Shown here: piece after piece, positions 1,371-22,726 of the stretch | Position numbering within the stretch: position 1 is the stretch's first letter | Layout of the letters: the number at the start of each line of letters is the position of its first letter | IMG/VR virus record: IMGVR_UViG_3300045971_000855 | Span: 1 to 30,747 of that record | Length of the DNA stretch: 30,747 nt | Strand: one strand, 5' to 3' | From: a virus | The notes under the pieces: generated by a model | Told to the model about the DNA's origin: nothing | The model's input: only the letters and a program-made list of their open reading frames with translations | Databases searched by the model: none | Program-made: the position numbers and the translations under genes

Positions 1371-1730
1371 TTAAGTACTGATTCGTGTGCCGGGAGTAAC
1401 AAGAGCAATGCCGCTTGTTTGTTCCAAATATTGCTTAGTAACATTAGGAGATGGATCAAATGGTGGAATAATTAAAGCTGAAACTGGTAAATTCAATCGT
1501 TCAATTGTTGGATTTGAAAGTGTCCAAGGAATAAATGCTAAACCAATATTACCATTTGGCATAGGTTGAAATTGAAGAATATGTGGTCTACGAACTGTGT
1601 ATCCAGTGATTTCACCTTTTTCTGCCCCACTATTTTTAGTTGCAAAAATCGGATTTCCATAAATTGTATCCGTTACTTCTGCAACGACTTCATCACCACC
1701 AACCATTTTGAATGATTTTACTTCTGACAT
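1371..1730 (-). CDS. Sm-like (LSM-fold) hypothetical phage protein, 119 aa
   Basis: The N-terminus reads like the first Sm strand pair (KMVGGDEVVAEV). Later parts, a proline-rich ILQFQPMPNGNIGLAFIPW followed by a strand pair ending LIIPPFDPSPNV, follow the pattern of small Sm-like proteins common in T4-type phages and cyanophages. The function of that phage family is not established; an Sm fold would suggest RNA or protein assembly. The ATG at 1730 has GGAG 9 nt upstream. It is the first gene of a pair with the 63-aa protein downstream. Family assignment is by pattern only. Confidence 0.6.
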   Translation of the reverse strand: MSEVKSFKMVGGDEVVAEVTDTIYGNPIFATKNSGAEKGEITGYTVRRPHILQFQPMPNGNIGLAFIPWTLSNPTIERLNLPVSALIIPPFDPSPNVTKQYLEQTSGIALVTPGTRIST

Positions 1731-1746
1731 TTTTACTTCTCCAAAT

Positions 1747-2247
1747 TTAAAGGGTTTTTATTTTTACTATATTGCCGGTTACTTGTAAGTCCGGCCAATT
1801 AAAATGCTCGTTAAATACTACATCATCTAAAAACAAAACTTCTGTCTTAACAATTAAATGCGTATATTTAAATTTAAGTCTACACCACAATCTAAAAGAT
1901 TCATGCTTGGACCAAAAAGAAGATGCATCATCGAAAGTTACTGTCCCAGGATTTAATCCCATAACTGAACAACAAGCTGGAATAATATCGTCATCAACAG
2001 TTAAAATATCATTCAACTTAATATCTAATGTAGACTCAATCATTGGTCTGCAACGAAGATTAAATAATGTTTTCTGAGTCTCATCCCAAATAGCAAATGA
2101 AAAAATATGAATGAAATTCGGTTTAAATAATGCGATAAACTTTTTAATTTCTTCAACATTAATCATATTAGTATTATGCCAACCATTAGTGGCTGGTGTT
2201 ATTACTGTATCTTCAAGATCAAGAAATAAATGTTTAATAGTGTCCAT
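1747..2247 (-). CDS. HAD-like hydrolase-fold protein with altered motif I, 166 aa
   Basis: The N-terminus is a hydrophobic strand followed by D10-L-E-D-T14, which resembles HAD motif I (DxDxT), but the second aspartate, the usual acid/base, is Glu12. A strand with IHIFSFAIWD near residues 46-56 could be motif II (Ser), and VLFLDDVVFNEH near residue 137 fits motif IV (DD). This suggests a small HAD phosphatase-like protein acting on an unknown substrate, possibly with reduced activity. The motif at the very N-terminus supports the ATG at 2247. A strong promoter ends only a few bases upstream, so the transcript may have no leader; no ribosome site is visible. Confidence 0.6.
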   Translation of the reverse strand: MDTIKHLFLDLEDTVITPATNGWHNTNMINVEEIKKFIALFKPNFIHIFSFAIWDETQKTLFNLRCRPMIESTLDIKLNDILTVDDDIIPACCSVMGLNPGTVTFDDASSFWSKHESFRLWCRLKFKYTHLIVKTEVLFLDDVVFNEHFNWPDLQVTGNIVKIKTL

Positions 2248-3405: not shown

Positions 3406-4326
3406 ATGTTCAATCTCCTTATTTCATATTTATTATTGCGTAATCACAGAAAATCTATTGAAGCTGCATTTGATTCAAATAGCTTCTTCAATACTAACAT
3501 TGATCTTCCGCTAAATATACCCCAACATGGGAAGCATTTATCCATTATACAAATTTATTGTATCGCATGGATGATAGCAAGAGTTCAAAAAACATTATCC
3601 CTAGGTGATATAAGGGATATGACTTGCTTGCAAAATTTTCATAACCTAGATCAATATAAACAATTAAAAATATTAGCTCATAATAAAAAAATAATTAGCA
3701 TAACAGACATTTTGAATTTACCATATCATCCTAGATATGATTATCCTTCTAAATTTGGATTCCATTTAAAAGAACGAAATAGAATGTTCAATAAAGCAAA
3801 GTGCCTCCACACGAAACATTTAAGTAGAATTAACGCATACTCGGATTTAAGTTGGCCAACAACAAAATCTGTTATGACGTTTGAACTGGATCACTTAGCA
3901 GTATCAAGATGCGAACCTATGTTTGGAATAAATTATGAAGTGTATAAGAAACAAAATGATATTACAAATTGGCCGAAAACATCTAATGAAAATAAAATAA
4001 AATTTGGTTGGATAATATTCTGGGTAGATAGTAATATGTCAGTAAACATATCTGAATTTCAATCGCCAACGGAATCTATTAGTACAACAAAGGCCGGAGT
4101 AAAACACAATTTTATCGAGCCTTTAAATTGGACTGGCTTTATGTTAGAACAATTAATTCAGTATTTTGTATTACGTGGATTTTCAAGATTTTCTATTCCA
4201 ACTTTAGAATATAGAAAAGAAAGTACCACAAGTAAGCATTTGATGGATTCTCATTATAGAGAAATACCAAAGGCATTTGGATTTAAACGAGAAGCAAAAG
4301 AATGGGTATTGGATTTCAATCTTTAG
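3406..4326 (+). CDS. Hypothetical protein on plus strand, 306 aa
   Basis: Not recognised. This is one of only three plus-strand genes. The product is rich in aromatic residues and lysine, with no membrane segment beyond a hydrophobic N-terminus (residues 3-11) and no catalytic motif I can name. The first ATG has no ribosome site and lies one base from the start of the divergent methyltransferase gene, so the start is uncertain; a TTG at 3436 is an alternative, also without a good site. Its end overlaps the convergent gene at 4316 by 11 bp. The length and uninterrupted frame argue that it is real. No promoter is obvious. Confidence 0.65.
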   Translation: MFNLLISYLLLRNHRKSIEAAFDSNSFFNTNIDLPLNIPQHGKHLSIIQIYCIAWMIARVQKTLSLGDIRDMTCLQNFHNLDQYKQLKILAHNKKIISITDILNLPYHPRYDYPSKFGFHLKERNRMFNKAKCLHTKHLSRINAYSDLSWPTTKSVMTFELDHLAVSRCEPMFGINYEVYKKQNDITNWPKTSNENKIKFGWIIFWVDSNMSVNISEFQSPTESISTTKAGVKHNFIEPLNWTGFMLEQLIQYFVLRGFSRFSIPTLEYRKESTTSKHLMDSHYREIPKAFGFKREAKEWVLDFNL

Positions 4327-4579
4327 CCGGTTTATTCTTAATAACAATTCTTCTAGCTTTAGCCTTCTTTATAATGGGTCTAATATCTGGTATTAGTTCT
4401 TTATCCATTAAAACGTTTATGTGTTCTTGTGTGAGTAAGAATTGTTGAGGTGGTATAAAAATACCGAACTTCGTTTTTGCCCACTGCTGAACTGCGGGCA
4501 TATCTACTTTACCAGTATCATCCGAAAACGTATAATAAAGTAATAGTAAATCTAATTCTAGCTTAGTAATATTATTCAT
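4316..4579 (-). CDS. Hypothetical protein, 87 aa
   Basis: Not recognised. The protein has a helical N-terminal half (LELDLLLLYY) and a very basic C-terminus ending in a lysine/arginine cluster (IIKKAKARRIVIKNK), which could contact nucleic acid. The start at 4579 has GGAG 5 nt upstream; a TTG ten codons earlier lies inside the hairpin that ends the tmRNA transcript and is less likely. It follows the tmRNA directly, so read-through from the tmRNA may express it. Confidence 0.65.
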   Translation of the reverse strand: MNNITKLELDLLLLYYTFSDDTGKVDMPAVQQWAKTKFGIFIPPQQFLLTQEHINVLMDKELIPDIRPIIKKAKARRIVIKNKPAKD

Positions 4580-4597
4580 CTTACTCCAATTAAATTG

Positions 4598-4621
4598 AAG
4601 GGACAAGTTGCCCTGTCCCTT
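4598..4621 (-). terminator. Hairpin ending the tmRNA transcript
   Basis: AAGGGACA (4614-4621 on the minus strand) pairs with TGTCCCTT (4598-4605) around an 8-nt loop. The tail TTCAATTTAATT is only moderately T-rich, so this may be a weak terminator or a 3' processing/protecting hairpin. Confidence 0.5.
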
Positions 4622-4785
4622 CTACCGTTCGTTTATAAGGTGGCTAGCCTCACCGAGTGCAGGTTCTTACGCTGCAATCCGGAATTGTGAGTCATTTGCA
4701 TTTACGCTTTTTGCTTGATTTACGGTCATCGCCTACCTAGCGCCAAAATTCTTACTTATTTGCTGATCGATTCCAATTCACCCCC
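4622..4785 (-). ncRNA. tmRNA coding piece (5' half, tag frame, pseudoknot region)
   Basis: It begins with GGGGGTG and a D-loop-like GAATTGGAATCGATC, continues through an AT-rich stretch to the resume codon GCA at 4699-4697, and after the tag holds complementary segments (for example GGTG/CACC around 4630-4650) that could form a pseudoknot. The 3' end is not visible; the hairpin at 4598-4621 follows. Confidence 0.85.
4667..4699 (-). CDS. tmRNA proteolysis tag frame, ANDSQFRIAA
   Basis: Reading from the resume codon GCA (4697-4699) gives A-N-D-S-Q-F-R-I-A-A and then TAA (4667-4669). Known tags begin AND or AN and end in hydrophobic-A-A (E. coli ANDENYALAA), so both the SspB-side N-terminus and the ClpXP-side C-terminus are preserved, with I instead of L before AA. 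Translation starts after a trans jump, so no ATG or ribosome site is expected. Confidence 0.9.
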   Translation of the reverse strand, partial: ANDSQFRIAA

Positions 4786-4862
4786 ATCAGATGTACACTA
4801 AATCAGGTTAGGCTCGTAGGGAGTCAAGTACCCTCAATTGGCTTTTAGAAATAATGTACATT

Positions 4863-4930
4863 TGGTGGAGATGTCGGGGGTCGAACCCGAGTCTCAACAA
4901 CCTTTCTTAATACTAGTTTACGCTGTTTAC
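4863..4930 (-). ncRNA. tmRNA acceptor piece (3' half of tRNA-like domain)
   Basis: It carries the P2 strand (4894-4900), the 5-bp T-stem with T-loop TTCGACC, the acceptor strand CATCTCC, discriminator A (4866) and an encoded CCA (4863-4865). The mature 5' end of this piece is not visible and is set by eye. The upstream gene ends at 4946, so transcription probably enters from it. Confidence 0.85.
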
Positions 4931-4945
4931 TACAAAAACTATTTA

Positions 4946-5764
4946 TTACTCTACTAATAAAACAAGGCTTGCACAAGAGAATCCACATTCTAAAAATTCA
5001 TCAACATTAACTGTAATGATATTATAATTTCTATGATTTAACAGCATCTCTAACTTTCCAGACATACCAGAAGTAATGATATTCATATCAATAGAAATTG
5101 ATTGACATACTAAGTCAAGAGCATCTTCTCGTGAGATAGGAATATGCCTGCCCTCATAAAATTGTTCTATGATATATTGTGAGTGTTCACTGAAGCCTTC
5201 TGGATACCATAATAAATCACCACTCTCTAAAACACACATACATTTATTAAGAGTGTTCAATACTGGGTCAACTAATTCTAACCCCCTAACAATAGTATCA
5301 TAGATATCCAGTGTCTCATCGAGCACTGCTTTATATTCAAATGTGCTTTTAAAGCCAAATCCATACCAAAGAATACTTCCATCTAAATTTAGAATGGCAT
5401 CTTCACTGCCCGAAAAGGAATATTTTTCACGTTCTGCTGGCTTATTATATCCTTGATCTACAGCATATCCTTCTTCTTTCAATTCTTTGACGATATATGT
5501 TTCATATTCACTATCGCTATAAAATGCAGATTGACATGTTAGTATCATATCTTCAATGCTGACACCAGCCTTAGCTATAAAAATAGAACCTGTATCTTTT
5601 AGTGATGTTACTGGGAGAACATTTACATAATTCCCGCAAGATTCTATTGCGTTTCTTAATTCGCTCCACTGTTTGATAGCGTCTACACTAAATAAATATT
5701 GAGCAGGTAACCAATCTTGTTCTTGGGTACGCATTGCTGGAGATGCCATTATGTAATGTTTCAT
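4946..5764 (-). CDS. Amidinotransferase/dimethylargininase-fold protein, apparently without active site, 272 aa
   Basis: The layout follows the dimethylargininase/arginine-deiminase superfamily: MASPAMRT at the start, FSGSEDAILNLDGSILWYGFGFKS (residues 117-140) matching the substrate-loop block (EGxGDAL...LWxGYGFR), LVDPVLNTLNKCMCVL (164-179) matching the block that normally holds the catalytic His (YHLDTCFCPL), LLWYPEGFS (184-192), and DEFLECGFSCASLVLL (255-270) matching the C-terminal block with the catalytic Cys. In this alignment His is replaced by Thr171, the following Asp by Asn173, and the Cys position by Ser266, with a Cys two residues earlier. So the fold is likely kept but hydrolysis is doubtful. 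A late-like octamer lies upstream (5796-5803). The stop is just before the tmRNA. Confidence 0.72.
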   Translation of the reverse strand: MKHYIMASPAMRTQEQDWLPAQYLFSVDAIKQWSELRNAIESCGNYVNVLPVTSLKDTGSIFIAKAGVSIEDMILTCQSAFYSDSEYETYIVKELKEEGYAVDQGYNKPAEREKYSFSGSEDAILNLDGSILWYGFGFKSTFEYKAVLDETLDIYDTIVRGLELVDPVLNTLNKCMCVLESGDLLWYPEGFSEHSQYIIEQFYEGRHIPISREDALDLVCQSISIDMNIITSGMSGKLEMLLNHRNYNIITVNVDEFLECGFSCASLVLLVE

Positions 5765-15030: not shown

Positions 15031-15378
15031 TTAAACCTCCACTGCTTTATCCAGCTCAAGATAATTTCCCGTTTCAGCAAAACGCTGCAGATGAGGAAGC
15101 AAAGTTTTTACCATCGCTTGAGTAAGGTGCATGCGAACTTGTACCTTCTCATTTTTGTTACCATTAGGACCATCTAAATTTGGTCCTGTATTATCAACAC
15201 CAAACCAAATTGCCGGTTCAGTAGCAAGACTTGAATCTTGTAGTGAACATTCCTGATGATAGCGATCAAGAAATTCAAAGCAGCCAAAGCCGCGACTATT
15301 CCGTGAACCCACTAATTCAATATCAGTCTGCTCAAACTCGTCACCATCTTCAACAACTACCGTTTGTGTGAGTTTCAT
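15031..15378 (-). CDS. Hypothetical protein linked to DNA ligase, 115 aa
   Basis: Not recognised. N-terminal beta-like part (MKLTQTVVVEDGDEFEQTDIELVGSR), a central region with several Asn/Gly turns, and a C-terminal helix (TQAMVKTLLPHLQRFAETG). Its ATG overlaps the stop of the ligase gene by one base (TAATG) with GGAGG upstream inside the ligase codons, so the two are translated together. A ligase accessory or unrelated function is equally possible. Confidence 0.75.
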   Translation of the reverse strand: MKLTQTVVVEDGDEFEQTDIELVGSRNSRGFGCFEFLDRYHQECSLQDSSLATEPAIWFGVDNTGPNLDGPNGNKNEKVQVRMHLTQAMVKTLLPHLQRFAETGNYLELDKAVEV

Positions 15379-16697
15379 TATACCTCCACTATTTTATCGT
15401 CTCTTGCATGCTCATAAGTACAGAAACGAAGAGATGAATATTGTTTTGTTTTCGATTTGGAAACTTCTTGGTACTTGATAACATGAGTAGCATCAAGCCA
15501 CTTCTGCGGATTAGCTTTCATATCAGCACGCTGAGCATCACTAAAACCAGAGCCAACATTAAATTCTACACGTTCGCCACTTTCGAGGAATCCTACACAA
15601 TTTGCACCACCGATAGTATTTTCCAACCGAGTCTTTTTACGGCCTGGATAAAATGCAATCATACGTGCATCAACATCAAAGAACCGTTTTACTTTTGTCC
15701 ATGCGAAGGAACGATCCCAAGAATAAACACTATCCCAATTCTTAAGAATGAGACCTTCAATTTTGCGAGCTGCATTTTCCGGTAGATCAATTGCATCATT
15801 GCAATAGCCAACCATATCTTGATAGTCTTTTACTTCGCGGCCTTCTGACAGGATGATTTTCTTAACACCAGTCATAGCCAATAGATGCTTAAGTGAATCA
15901 CGATTTTGTCGCATTGTAATATCAGTTTTTTGATTCAACCAATCTGTCATCGGCATTAAGAAGAATGCGCGGAATCGCAAATTAGCTTTAGCTTGATCAT
16001 TACCAGCTTTTTTAGCATTTACTGTATCGGTAAATCCTAGATCGCTGCATCGTTCACCATCAAGAATGAAGTCAACTTTGCCGAGAGTGTTATGCAGTTC
16101 ACGTAAATCTTCGTCGAAGAGACCATTGACATGTTCTGCAATTTTACCAGATCGGGAGTAGTAGATAATTTCATCTGCTTTAACAAATGCAATGGTACGT
16201 TCACCATCATATTTGAAATCTGCTTGACATGGAAAAGTAACATACTTTTCAAAGTCATCGGTGTCATCACATTTATCAGCTAACATAACTGAAAAAGTAC
16301 GAACTTGTTCATCTTTCCAAACTTTGTTGTAGCTTTCAACTGAGAAACCAGCCCGCAAATCTTTATCTAGAATTCGTTCTAGATAGCTTGCGGTTTCTTG
16401 AGTGAAAAGGGCTAGGGTTGCAGTAACCATAGCTCGAGCAGCATCACCAGTTACACGACGAGCATCAAGATCATCAAGCATTGAAATCACAACAGGAATA
16501 TTTGCATCGCTATCAACACTAGCAAATTTAGCTGGCTGCTCGAACTTGCGAACACCGTAAACACGGAATGCATCTTGAGCATAAGTCATTAATGCACGAG
16601 ACGGACCATCAAGTTTAGCCAGAGCTTCCTTGATAGTATTTTTAGTTCCAGCGCCTTCAGCAGATTCACATTCTTTTAAGATTTCTACAAAATTCAT
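15378..16697 (-). CDS. 30: ATP-dependent DNA ligase, 439 aa
   Basis: Seals nicks using ATP through a lysine-AMP intermediate. Motif I is FKYDGER at 161-167 with the nucleophile Lys162; the SRSGK motif (181-185) and FILDGER (210-216) follow; then LRFRAFFL (about 240-247), EGLIL (314-318, motif IV), WTKVK (333-337, motif V) and a C-terminal OB-fold region (residues 345-439). The N-terminal 150 residues are the helical DNA-binding part. Length and layout fit T4 gp30-type ligases (487 aa in T4), slightly shorter. First gene after promoter P6; next gene coupled. Confidence 0.93.
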   Translation of the reverse strand: MNFVEILKECESAEGAGTKNTIKEALAKLDGPSRALMTYAQDAFRVYGVRKFEQPAKFASVDSDANIPVVISMLDDLDARRVTGDAARAMVTATLALFTQETASYLERILDKDLRAGFSVESYNKVWKDEQVRTFSVMLADKCDDTDDFEKYVTFPCQADFKYDGERTIAFVKADEIIYYSRSGKIAEHVNGLFDEDLRELHNTLGKVDFILDGERCSDLGFTDTVNAKKAGNDQAKANLRFRAFFLMPMTDWLNQKTDITMRQNRDSLKHLLAMTGVKKIILSEGREVKDYQDMVGYCNDAIDLPENAARKIEGLILKNWDSVYSWDRSFAWTKVKRFFDVDARMIAFYPGRKKTRLENTIGGANCVGFLESGERVEFNVGSGFSDAQRADMKANPQKWLDATHVIKYQEVSKSKTKQYSSLRFCTYEHARDDKIVEV

Positions 16698-19288: not shown

Positions 19289-19726
19289 ATGGCCAAGAAA
19301 AAAATTCCAGCATTAAAAATAGAAATGGTTGATGAGCCAGTCAATCTCCATATTATGGCTCTGCTTGAATATAAGCGTGAACAGTATTTATGTGTGATAG
19401 ATAATATTTCTCCCACTGAAATAGGAGCTTATGTCGTTGACTATGCAGAGCAAGGGAATATTTCTGTTCAAGATTTTCTAAGCGTGGCTACATATTGGTT
19501 TTATAGCAAATCAGAACAATGTCCACTAAGTGTGGAAGTTGCAAGGCAGGGATTAACAGAAATTCTATCGCCCATGTATAGAACATTTGACAGTAATTAT
19601 GTTGCGAGAATTATAGGACAAGCATTCTCCTTCGAAGCAATGAATACAACCAAGGTTCGAAGGAGACGAGTAGTGCAAATACCAGAAAGTATTGCGATTA
19701 GATTGAAGAAACCGAACTTAGACTAA
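19289..19726 (+). CDS. Hypothetical late protein, 145 aa
   Basis: Not recognised with certainty. An alpha-helical middle (ISVQDFLSVATYWFYSKSEQCPL) and a basic C-terminal stretch (TTKVRRRRVVQIPESIAIRLKK) that could bind DNA. A strong ribosome site (AGGAG, 8 nt) and a late-like promoter support it. Plus-strand location between divergent late promoters suggests a virion or packaging-related gene. Ends with a 9-bp overlap with the convergent nucleotidyltransferase gene. Confidence 0.75.
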   Translation: MAKKKIPALKIEMVDEPVNLHIMALLEYKREQYLCVIDNISPTEIGAYVVDYAEQGNISVQDFLSVATYWFYSKSEQCPLSVEVARQGLTEILSPMYRTFDSNYVARIIGQAFSFEAMNTTKVRRRRVVQIPESIAIRLKKPNLD

Positions 19727-20752
19727 ACCATATAGAAGTTTAAAGACATTAACTTTCCACTCTTTAAATTCAGCATCTAATTCATTTGTTCGTTCTCTTA
19801 AAACCGAATTTGCTACTGCATCATCTATTTGATTAAATGCATCTTCAAGATATGCAGTTGCTAATGGCAAAGATACTTCACCATTTTTCAGCTTTAATAA
19901 AACATCTGCATTTGGTCGTGGCAATGTCAATGTACCTTTATTGCTAAGTTCTAAGATCTGTTCTGTGATACGAACAGCATGGGACAAAGCCTTCCAGTCA
20001 ACACCTTCATCATCCTTATCAGTAAGTGTAACACGCTTACCATAAGTCGCTACAGTATTTTCTACAGATGTTAGTATTGTTTGAAGACTAACAGTAAAAT
20101 AATACTGCTTACCACAGATATTCAAAACATCTGCAGGCTCTGCATGAAATAATTTTGAACCACTTCCAGCAAGCTTCTCAACTTTAACATGTGGCAATTG
20201 AAGAAGATTAAATTTCAATTCGTCGTTTGCTTTCAGTGTCTGATCTACATCTTTCAATGCATCTTTCAATAACTGAACGGCTTTAGTTAGAGTTGTGTAA
20301 CGCTCATTTTTCAAACCATAAAGCTTTGCCTGAGAAACCGCATAGCCAACCATTTTCTTAACATTACGATTTAAGAATTTAGTTACCAATTCTTCCATTA
20401 TATCTTGCATATTTGCAACTAGACTGATATCATTTGTATCAAGTGAAACAAATTTACCGTCCTTAGCAGCAAATGCTGTTTCAACAGCATAAGTTTGACC
20501 AGCATAAAAATCATCAAAGAAAACTTGTAGTGGCAGATATTCTGTTTCAGCTTCGCCTGCTAACATGCGATCACCAGCCTTCATGCCTTCTGGTTTTTCT
20601 TTGCGATTAGTTACTTTAATGTTCAGAAGCAAAGTGTCAAGAGCCGGTAAACACACAGTCTTGTAATCATAATCTGATTTTTCAGTTGCTGTTCCATATA
20701 GTCGGGAACCAGCGAGCATTGTAAACAATGCAGTATCTTTATTTGCTTTCAT
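19718..20752 (-). CDS. RlaP-type nucleotidyltransferase (Pol beta superfamily), 344 aa
   Basis: GSRLYGTATEKSDYDYK at residues 15-31 carries the GS motif and the D-x-D pair (Asp27, Asp29) of the Pol beta nucleotidyltransferase fold; the G-S-R-x-x-G-x-x-x-x-x-S-D-Y-D form is typical of the RlaP/YcgL-like family linked to RNA repair. The rest is helical with a possible third acidic residue around 70-76. It transfers a nucleotide to an unknown acceptor, likely RNA. Ribosome site AAGGAAA before the ATG. Followed downstream by a late convergent gene; its neighbours upstream are small genes and the CCA-adding enzyme. Confidence 0.82.
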   Translation of the reverse strand: MKANKDTALFTMLAGSRLYGTATEKSDYDYKTVCLPALDTLLLNIKVTNRKEKPEGMKAGDRMLAGEAETEYLPLQVFFDDFYAGQTYAVETAFAAKDGKFVSLDTNDISLVANMQDIMEELVTKFLNRNVKKMVGYAVSQAKLYGLKNERYTTLTKAVQLLKDALKDVDQTLKANDELKFNLLQLPHVKVEKLAGSGSKLFHAEPADVLNICGKQYYFTVSLQTILTSVENTVATYGKRVTLTDKDDEGVDWKALSHAVRITEQILELSNKGTLTLPRPNADVLLKLKNGEVSLPLATAYLEDAFNQIDDAVANSVLRERTNELDAEFKEWKVNVFKLLYGLV

Positions 20753-21392: not shown

Positions 21393-21608
21393 TTACTCCT
21401 TAAAATGTTCTTTGATTAATTTCTGTGCATTTTTTAATCCGATAATAACTACACTATCAGTAGTCTTCCTAATTTCAGCATCAAGAATTGAAATACTTTC
21501 CTGCACAACCATATTAATAATCGGTTCGATTTCGTGATCTGAAATTGAAGGGAAAAATGCAGTTCTCATTCTATGATACTGACACAGTTCACTTATAATT
21601 TTGTTCAT
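21393..21608 (-). CDS. Hypothetical protein, 71 aa
   Basis: Not recognised. Helical protein ending in a helix of alternating charge (IGLKNAQKLIKEHFKE). Its ATG overlaps the stop of the CCA-adding enzyme by 4 nt, so it is co-translated with it. Confidence 0.68.
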   Translation of the reverse strand: MNKIISELCQYHRMRTAFFPSISDHEIEPIINMVVQESISILDAEIRKTTDSVVIIGLKNAQKLIKEHFKE

Positions 21609-22726
21609 GCATATTCTCCCATAGCTTCTGCCATTCTAACCTTACGCAGACGATCCATCTGTTCACCAATTTCTTTACCTGGCAAATGCTGAAATGCTTC
21701 TGATGTAACAGTACTACCAGCTTTTGCACAAGCAGCCAAGTCAGTAGATGATACACAATATTTGATACCGCAATATTCGCCATAAGTCATTACTGACAAC
21801 AAGGTTTTCAAAGCTGAAGACTGACTATCAAAACCTCTGATTCTTTTCAAGACCTTAAAAATTTGTTCAACCTCAAACTTAACTATCTTAGTGCTAGGCA
21901 AAGACATATTTCTATTTCGCCATACCAAATTCAAATTCTGATGCGCTTCAACAAAGATGCTTTTACTTTTGATAAATTCAAATGCTAGCGGTTTAGATGC
22001 AAGAGCAACGAAAGCTACCAATTTATCTTCTTCTGCAACTTTATCTGTTTCCAAACCAGCAGCATACCAAAAAACAGCTGTTGAATAAAACAAAGTAGCA
22101 AAGAAAGATACGTCATCCATTACGCCGAATCTATGCAACACCTCAAAAAATCTAAGTACATGTCGTGGAGTAGCAAATACTTTTTCAATCTCAGCCCAGT
22201 ATCTTTCTTGAGACAATGCTTCCATTTCACCAGACTTAACAATTTTTCTAGCTAGTGCTACTGTTTCAGGAGCAATTGTAAAGCTCTCAAAGCGAGCAGC
22301 AAATCGTGCCAAACGAATAACACGCAATGGATCATCTGCAAAAGCTTCTGATGTATGACGCAAGATACCATTTTTCAAATCTTCTTGCCCGCCAAAAGGA
22401 TCAACCAAATTACCATCTTCATCTTCTGCAATTGAATTGATTGTCAAATCCCTTCGCATCAAATCAGATTCGATGGTGATAGATGGATCAAATGTAACAG
22501 CAAAACCTGTATATCCAAAACCAGTTTTTCTTTCTGTTCGGGCCAAAGCATACTCAGCCCCAGTAACAGGATGCAAGAAAACTGGAAATGACATACCAAC
22601 ATGAACAAAACCATCAGCCAACATTTCTTTTTCAGTGGCGCCAACAACTACATAGTCCAAATCATTAGGAACTTTACCCCGCAATTTATCTCTAACAGCA
22701 CCACCAACCAAGTATGTTTTTTTCAT
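21605..22726 (-). CDS. cca: CCA-adding enzyme / poly(A) polymerase family (class II), 373 aa
   Basis: It adds or repairs the CCA end of tRNAs. YLVGGAVRD at residues 5-13 is the nucleotidyltransferase motif A, DLDYV (22-26) holds the catalytic aspartates, RRDLTINSIA (91-100) is the motif B block, and DDPLRVIRLARFAAR (131-145) is the motif C block; SQERYWAEI (about 176-184) fits the ERxxxE signature. The C-terminus has no HD domain as in E. coli Cca. In this window it could service phage-carried tRNAs and the tmRNA acceptor end (CCA is already encoded). It starts one base after the stop of the gene at 22728. Confidence 0.92.
   Translation of the reverse strand: MKKTYLVGGAVRDKLRGKVPNDLDYVVVGATEKEMLADGFVHVGMSFPVFLHPVTGAEYALARTERKTGFGYTGFAVTFDPSITIESDLMRRDLTINSIAEDEDGNLVDPFGGQEDLKNGILRHTSEAFADDPLRVIRLARFAARFESFTIAPETVALARKIVKSGEMEALSQERYWAEIEKVFATPRHVLRFFEVLHRFGVMDDVSFFATLFYSTAVFWYAAGLETDKVAEEDKLVAFVALASKPLAFEFIKSKSIFVEAHQNLNLVWRNRNMSLPSTKIVKFEVEQIFKVLKRIRGFDSQSSALKTLLSVMTYGEYCGIKYCVSSTDLAACAKAGSTVTSEAFQHLPGKEIGEQMDRLRKVRMAEAMGEYA

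Follow-up and report, generated by a model that had tools for sequence, protein, structure and literature searches.

Where does a tmRNA gene of permuted order in a phage genome come from, and what might its product do there? The question is raised by a stretch of 30,747 nucleotides (hereafter the window; IMG/VR virus record IMGVR_UViG_3300045971_000855), in which an initial annotation, made from the sequence alone, had recognized a phage-encoded, circularly permuted two-piece tmRNA. Permuted tmRNAs are known from alphaproteobacterial, betaproteobacterial and cyanobacterial lineages, and the presence of one in an AT-rich T4-like phage had been called unusual. That surprise is justified in part only: 53 two-piece tmRNAs have been called by ARAGORN among 18,146 phage genomes (Buchholz et al. 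2022, PMC9004378), the permuted tmRNA of Methylophilales phage Melnitz was described in 2022 (MZ577097; PMC9004378), and many more are found in IMG/VR, where two further permuted-tmRNA patterns were each matched by at least 120 viral contigs. Phage permuted tmRNAs are thus already known, and the new detail added here is their mosaicism.

The identity of the gene is well supported. ARAGORN calls a permuted tmRNA on the minus strand of the window (4955-4576) with the tag ANDSQFRIAA, and the check by ARAGORN and Infernal with Rfam models, which had been proposed along with the original reading, returned this permuted call together with two models above their cut-offs. RF04321 (tmRNA_permuted) matches with 113.2 bits (E 1.3e-21; positions 4924-4667, model positions 1-213) against a curated cut-off of 47 bits, and RF01850 (beta_tmRNA), the best model in its clan, matches positions 4990-4596 (E 2.3e-24) with 84.7 bits, narrowly passing its cut-off of 84 bits. 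The alpha-type model RF01849 is not the best clan model for the window, and the T-loop is UUCGACC rather than part of a GGGGCAGU-type T-arm; the labels alpha and beta, as used throughout, refer to Rfam models and T-loop, with the Cupriavidus gene L178 as the one bacterial permuted comparator. At gathering thresholds, a scan of all 30,747 bases against Rfam returned no family besides RF04321 and RF01850, except for one overlapping, lower-scoring match of the same clan.

The core of the gene, ssrA, spans 4597..4924 on the minus strand (ARAGORN, RF04321 and RF01850), and a single precursor would carry, in this order, the acceptor half, its CCA, a 77-nt spacer and the coding half. The predicted acceptor piece (4863..4924; ARAGORN, Rfam and covariation) holds part of the 5' leader AACAGCGUAAAC, the P2 3' strand (UUGUUGA, 4900-4894), a T-arm of 5 bp with the canonical loop UUCGACC (UCGGG-UUCGACC-CCCGA, 4890-4874; Rfam and covariation), the acceptor 3' strand (CAUCUCC, 4873-4867; covariation) with U70 of the G3-U70 pair, A73 (4866) and, read directly from the sequence, an encoded CCA (4865-4863). 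The 77-nt intervening segment (4786..4862), predicted to be cut out of the mature RNA, forms a hairpin stacked on the acceptor stem (fold z-score -2.9). The coding piece would begin at the predicted RNase P site with the acceptor 5' strand (GGGGGUG, 4785-4779; Rfam and covariation), which pairs across the permutation with 4873-4867 at all seven positions, two of the pairs being G-U. It continues with the P2 5' strand (UCAGCAA, 4766-4760; covariation), likewise forming 7/7 pairs with its partner, and the tag frame A-N-D-S-Q-F-R-I-A-A-stop, from the resume codon GCA to UAA (4699-4667; ARAGORN), at which the RF04321 match ends. A hydrophobic residue precedes the final AA of the tag, which ends in IAA rather than the usual LAA. 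The 3'-terminal hairpin GAAGGGACAGGGCAACUUGUCCCUUC (4597..4622) corresponds to the last hairpin of the beta_tmRNA model and is also terminator-like in a terminator scan; a sigma-70 promoter scan of the window returned no minus-strand sites and no excess over shuffles. Every structural element that the initial annotation had pointed out is therefore recovered: the acceptor half with its CCA ahead of the coding half (RF04321 above cut-off), the 7-bp acceptor stem closing across the permutation, the intact T-arm, the P2-like helix of 4760-4766 with 4894-4900 and the tag frame A-N-D-...-A-A-stop. Sequence and covariation together show that the tRNA-like domain closes across the permutation and retains the identity marks for alanine (G3-U70, A73 and CCA); a tag frame of 10 codons comes after it, with -IAA-stop at its end.

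Whether such RNAs are maintained was addressed with permuted tmRNAs of phages in IMG/VR, from which the tRNA-like halves were extracted and 27 distinct sequences aligned gap-free. In the three tRNA-like helices (19 pairs, n=27), 95.7% of positions are paired, compared with 72.6% in shuffles and 44-51% in slid alignments, and the covariation score is 0.617 versus 0.162 for shuffles and at most 0.124 for slid alignments, with 0 of 500 shuffles reaching 0.617. Fourteen of the 19 pairs are altered on both sides among the 27 phage tmRNAs, including all seven pairs of P2, and 100% of the T-arm cells are paired. The acceptor stem is also 100% paired across the 27 phages, with an invariant G-U at pair 3, although acceptor pairs 1-4 were set by the search pattern in most rows, the clade rows obtained with the covariance model being unconstrained. 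In these clade rows, pair 4 switches between G-C and C-G and pair 5 occurs as four pair types, whereas G3-U70 is kept throughout. Judged by these comparisons, the RNA of phage permuted tmRNAs is selected as a chargeable tmRNA, and because G3-U70, A73 and CCA are all kept, the window gene is very probably functional. That it should instead be a decaying relic or pseudogene, as its weak score under the beta model and its absence from two relatives might suggest, appears quite improbable given acceptor, T and P2 stems free of broken pairs, an intact tag and stop codon and the purifying pattern seen in the group.

The phage that carries the gene had been described as an AT-rich T4-like phage. Its GC content of 34% and the T4-type relatives of its replication genes agree with this, whereas its closest relatives are uncultured phages on contigs of up to 343-368 kb. 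The window encodes a clamp loader, a piece of a DNA polymerase, a virion protein, a DNA ligase, a tRNA nucleotidyltransferase and an RNA-repair-type nucleotidyltransferase. The ATP-dependent DNA ligase (15378..16697, minus strand; phrog_114), used as the query for finding relatives, has relatives on contigs of up to 343, 358 and 368 kb, which places the window, a fragment from a jumbo phage that is itself uncultured, in a jumbo-phage clade. No isolate phage had a match of at least 60% identity to the window proteins tested, and no nucleotide relatives of the window or of the related loci L131 and L174 were found among annotated phages. An SmpB gene was not found in 11 records (the window and ten relatives), in a search whose control was positive in 10 of 14 genomes. 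The CCA-adding-type tRNA nucleotidyltransferase (21605..22726, minus strand; phrog_2244, E 3e-92; PF01743) and the RlaP-like, RNA-repair-type nucleotidyltransferase (19718-20752, minus strand) together suggest upkeep of tRNA ends by the phage.

Two genes flank ssrA on the same strand: directly 5' of it a 272-aa gene of no family (4946..5764), and directly 3' of it a gene of ~90 aa (MNNITKLELDLLLLYYTFSD...; 4316..4579) that is conserved in the clade by clade comparison. The latter occurs in nearly all clade members and remains in place where ssrA is missing. By analogy to Melnitz it was considered as a gp33-like late-transcription coactivator, and this candidate was rejected, as no similarity to gp33 was detectable and no PHROG matched at E <0.06. 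A permuted tmRNA is present in 7 of 15 ligase relatives; in six of these it lies ~5-12 kb from the ligase, and its strand agrees with the arrangement in the window. Nine ligase-clade records, the window included, carry the ~90-aa gene; ssrA adjoins it in seven and is absent in G005 and in the 343-kb G007. A wider search with the ~90-aa gene yielded 17 loci with an alpha-type, a beta-type or no tmRNA. Most of them have a beta-type tmRNA, L174-L177 an alpha-type one (82-90 bits), L163 and L173 match the general permuted model only, and no tmRNA is found at L168, L171 and the G005 and G007 loci (L169 and L167, scored from L159 and L160, respectively). Types thus alternate at one syntenic locus, alpha at L174-L177 and beta in the window and at L161, L162, L164-L166, L170 and L172. 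Matches of the one-piece model RF00023 in the relatives were set aside, all being under the cut-off and most of tRNA or partial length. The tags differ among clade members and end in -AA. Because presence and absence of ssrA are mixed rather than cleanly separated in the ligase tree, the gene was likely lost or gained repeatedly in the clade, and two large relatives without it indicate that it is dispensable.

How, then, did the window gene come about? The initial annotation had offered either host origin or independent permutation, a choice that turns out to be ill-posed: the gene lies at a fixed jumbo-phage locus and is a recombinant of phage-borne permuted tmRNAs. Two classes of leader can be told apart at this locus, the CAGCGUAAAC class and the GUCGUAAU-type class, and likewise two of 3' ends, which have either CCACCUUGU...ACGG and a terminal hairpin or GAGG...GGCAACAGAA...CCUC (L131 and L177 were assigned to classes by eye and identity), and all four combinations of leader and 3' end are seen at the single locus, a four-gamete pattern that implies recombination within ssrA. 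In the window, the 3' end is beta-type, but the leader AACAGCGUAAAC is common to the alpha-type loci L174, L175 and L177. Its leader is 84% identical to that of L174 (z 9.2), compared with z <=2.3 against beta-leader loci, and its 3' part is 71% identical to that of L162 (z 8.0), compared with z <=0.7 against L130, L174 and L175. L130 is the opposite recombinant, with a leader like L161 and L162 and a 3' part like L175 (z 13.5). As the plasmid tmRNA L178 of Cupriavidus also has the AACAGAAA motif near its 3' end, the 3' class '3a' is not exclusively alpha, or strictly alphaproteobacterial; the recombination argument is independent of this label. On this pattern of matches, the window ssrA is a recombinant, and it can be accounted for without invoking a simple recent capture from a host or a new permutation. 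Recent capture of the host's ssrA is very improbable: if the host had a permuted ssrA of beta-like kind, a captured copy would indeed score best under the beta model, but the same locus and neighbour gene recur across a deeply diverged phage clade, and the leader matches one phage relative and the 3' end another. A new, independent permutation within the phage can be considered practically negligible, since nothing was found in its favour, all relatives are permuted, and RF04321 and RF01850 match end to end with the known permuted architecture and signatures. (The sole match of one bacterial genome scan made for reference, L147, was an ordinary one-piece tmRNA and was discarded.)

The recombinant can be placed among known systems. 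The ssrA of Melnitz (RF04321, 113.4 bits; RF01849, 106.7 bits) is, like that of the window, phage-borne, permuted, two-piece and directly upstream of a small gene. However, it is alpha-type with the T-arm GGGGGCAGUACCC, while the window gene is beta-type by model with a canonical T-loop, and it comes with a glutamine riboswitch and, downstream, a gene resembling gp33, whereas the window has no riboswitch match in Rfam and its downstream gene is without detectable gp33 similarity. The betaproteobacterial RF01850 tmRNA of Cupriavidus sp. KK10 plasmid p1 (L178) shares with the window the permuted order, the canonical T-loop, a 10-aa AND..AA tag and the terminal hairpin; its spacer has 32 nt rather than 77 nt, and the window differs by a leader of another type and an RF01850 score barely at the cut-off. 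This Cupriavidus gene (754-1085 of L178; plasmid of 1.67 Mb) is a complete permuted tmRNA gene with the tag ANDEKFALAA and is missing from the plasmid gene table. Bacillus phage G and mycobacteriophages also have an ssrA, as in the window, but their tmRNAs are one-piece and not permuted. They are listed among phages with ssrA (PMC4131195). A tmRNA is also reported for the Sinorhizobium phage AP-J-162 (PMC11242549), a different phage that is likewise a jumbo phage. Among viral permuted tmRNAs, L015, L018, L023, L033, L056, L094, L073 and L005 have unusually long predicted tags (~22-27 aa, e.g. AKASKFEYMTVDFSLEAADMVA), which may be misread start points.

In trans-translation, cleavage of a permuted tmRNA precursor by RNase P and 3' maturation yields two pieces, AlaRS reads G3-U70 and A73, and SmpB delivers the charged RNA. 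We consider it highly likely that the window carries an intact permuted ssrA of a jumbo phage, recombinant at a fixed locus, whose two-piece product acts in trans-translation with the SmpB and AlaRS of the host. Host RNase P would cut at 4785 and 3' processing would proceed to the CCA at 4863, leaving two pieces held together by the acceptor and P2 helices. The RNA would be charged with alanine by host AlaRS via G3-U70 and A73 and brought to stalled ribosomes by SmpB, which would have to come from the host, none having been found in the 11 phage records. Trans-translation could thereby be kept going during infection while host or phage mRNAs are cut, the likely benefit being that ribosomes are recycled and truncated proteins removed. 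Against this account count the narrow pass under the beta model (84.7 versus 84), the two large relatives without the gene and the IAA end of the tag. Its main rival is that the phage tmRNA mainly outcompetes or retunes host trans-translation, through its own tag or by titrating SmpB, rather than supplementing it. With no SmpB found in the phage records, both RNAs would draw on that of the host, the tags vary within the clade, and there is a precedent in the phage DS6A, whose tmRNA, consisting of the tRNA-like domain only, inhibits E. coli tmRNA (PMC4131195; PMC11915505). We regard such competition as unlikely, because conservation covers the tag frame, its stop codon and the final -AA, as would be expected of a working tag and not of a decoy.

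The spacer that would be discarded in making the two-piece RNA appears to have a use of its own in related phages. In the clade member L133 (tmRNA at 1380-1960, minus strand), a 165-nt spacer contains a Shine-Dalgarno (SD) sequence, an AUG and 51 stop-free codons up to the RNase P site, and relatives of the encoded protein occur free-standing in L134/L150 and L151. The same design is seen in Melnitz (ORF sequence MFKWLSKTRLVV...), L284, L189 and L198, and L148 (46077-46218) is likewise among the loci with a spacer gene. In viral contigs selected by spacer length and acceptor sequence only, 81 of the 185 distinct spacers among the matches listed (L299-L537) have an SD sequence and a start codon within the first 40 nt, and in 54 of these 81 an ORF fills at least 85% of the spacer, as compared with 15% in shuffles. 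After removal of redundancy among the matches listed, the count is 29 of 35 spacers versus 6.1 +/- 2.0 in shuffles (maximum 13 in 500 rounds), so that 29 of 98 (~30%) non-redundant long-spacer phage tmRNAs bear spacer protein genes. Across 11 disjoint pairs of relatives, pN/pS is 0.18 in frame versus 1.3 and 1.5 for the two remaining frames, and differences are distributed over the codon positions as 26/15/62; by this measure the spacer ORFs are probably small protein genes under selection. They comprise ~26-63 codons, and the SD sequence, whose bases are paired with the 3' end of the spacer (mean 79%), directly follows the CCA. The ORFs end at -1 (the UGA of UGAU|GGG), at -7, at ~-12 or within the tRNA-like domain, into which 25 of the 54 ORFs among the matches listed run, mostly to +13 and +42, with no stop codon ahead of the RNase P site. 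The window's own 77-nt spacer had no SD-plus-ORF in this survey. One protein family (YICINNYS.RHAR) is found in the alpha tmRNAs L441, L421, L438, L447, L498 and L526 and the beta tmRNAs L386 and L189, and another (MYYV.NLKTG.IIDTYDSLLEA) in L471 (alpha) and L373 (beta); with two families in both tmRNA types, spacer genes seem to shift between tmRNAs.

No report of spacer-encoded protein genes in permuted tmRNAs was found in the literature; among spacer contents, a 2025 tmRNA database paper describes a tRNA gene as well as a repeat and, in its accessible part, mentions no protein genes. We think it reasonably probable that permuted ssrA forms, in phages, a mobile cassette that undergoes recombination and the excised spacer of which serves as a gene slot that precursor processing turns into a mini-mRNA, with coupling in the stop-free frames. 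Where the frame has no stop within the spacer, the processed transcript would be a non-stop message, itself a natural substrate of the tmRNA from the same transcript, and we propose that the level of the protein and the maturation of the tmRNA would in this way be coupled.

With the window, the permuted tmRNAs known from phages gain a member that is of beta type and comes from a jumbo phage. Since permuted ssrA recombines at a fixed phage locus, phages could carry it between bacterial lineages, and such exchange makes the origin of bacterial permuted tmRNA a testable question. The spacer microproteins, if true, would represent a new way of nesting genes in a stable RNA, and one that is checkable in the cultured phage Melnitz.
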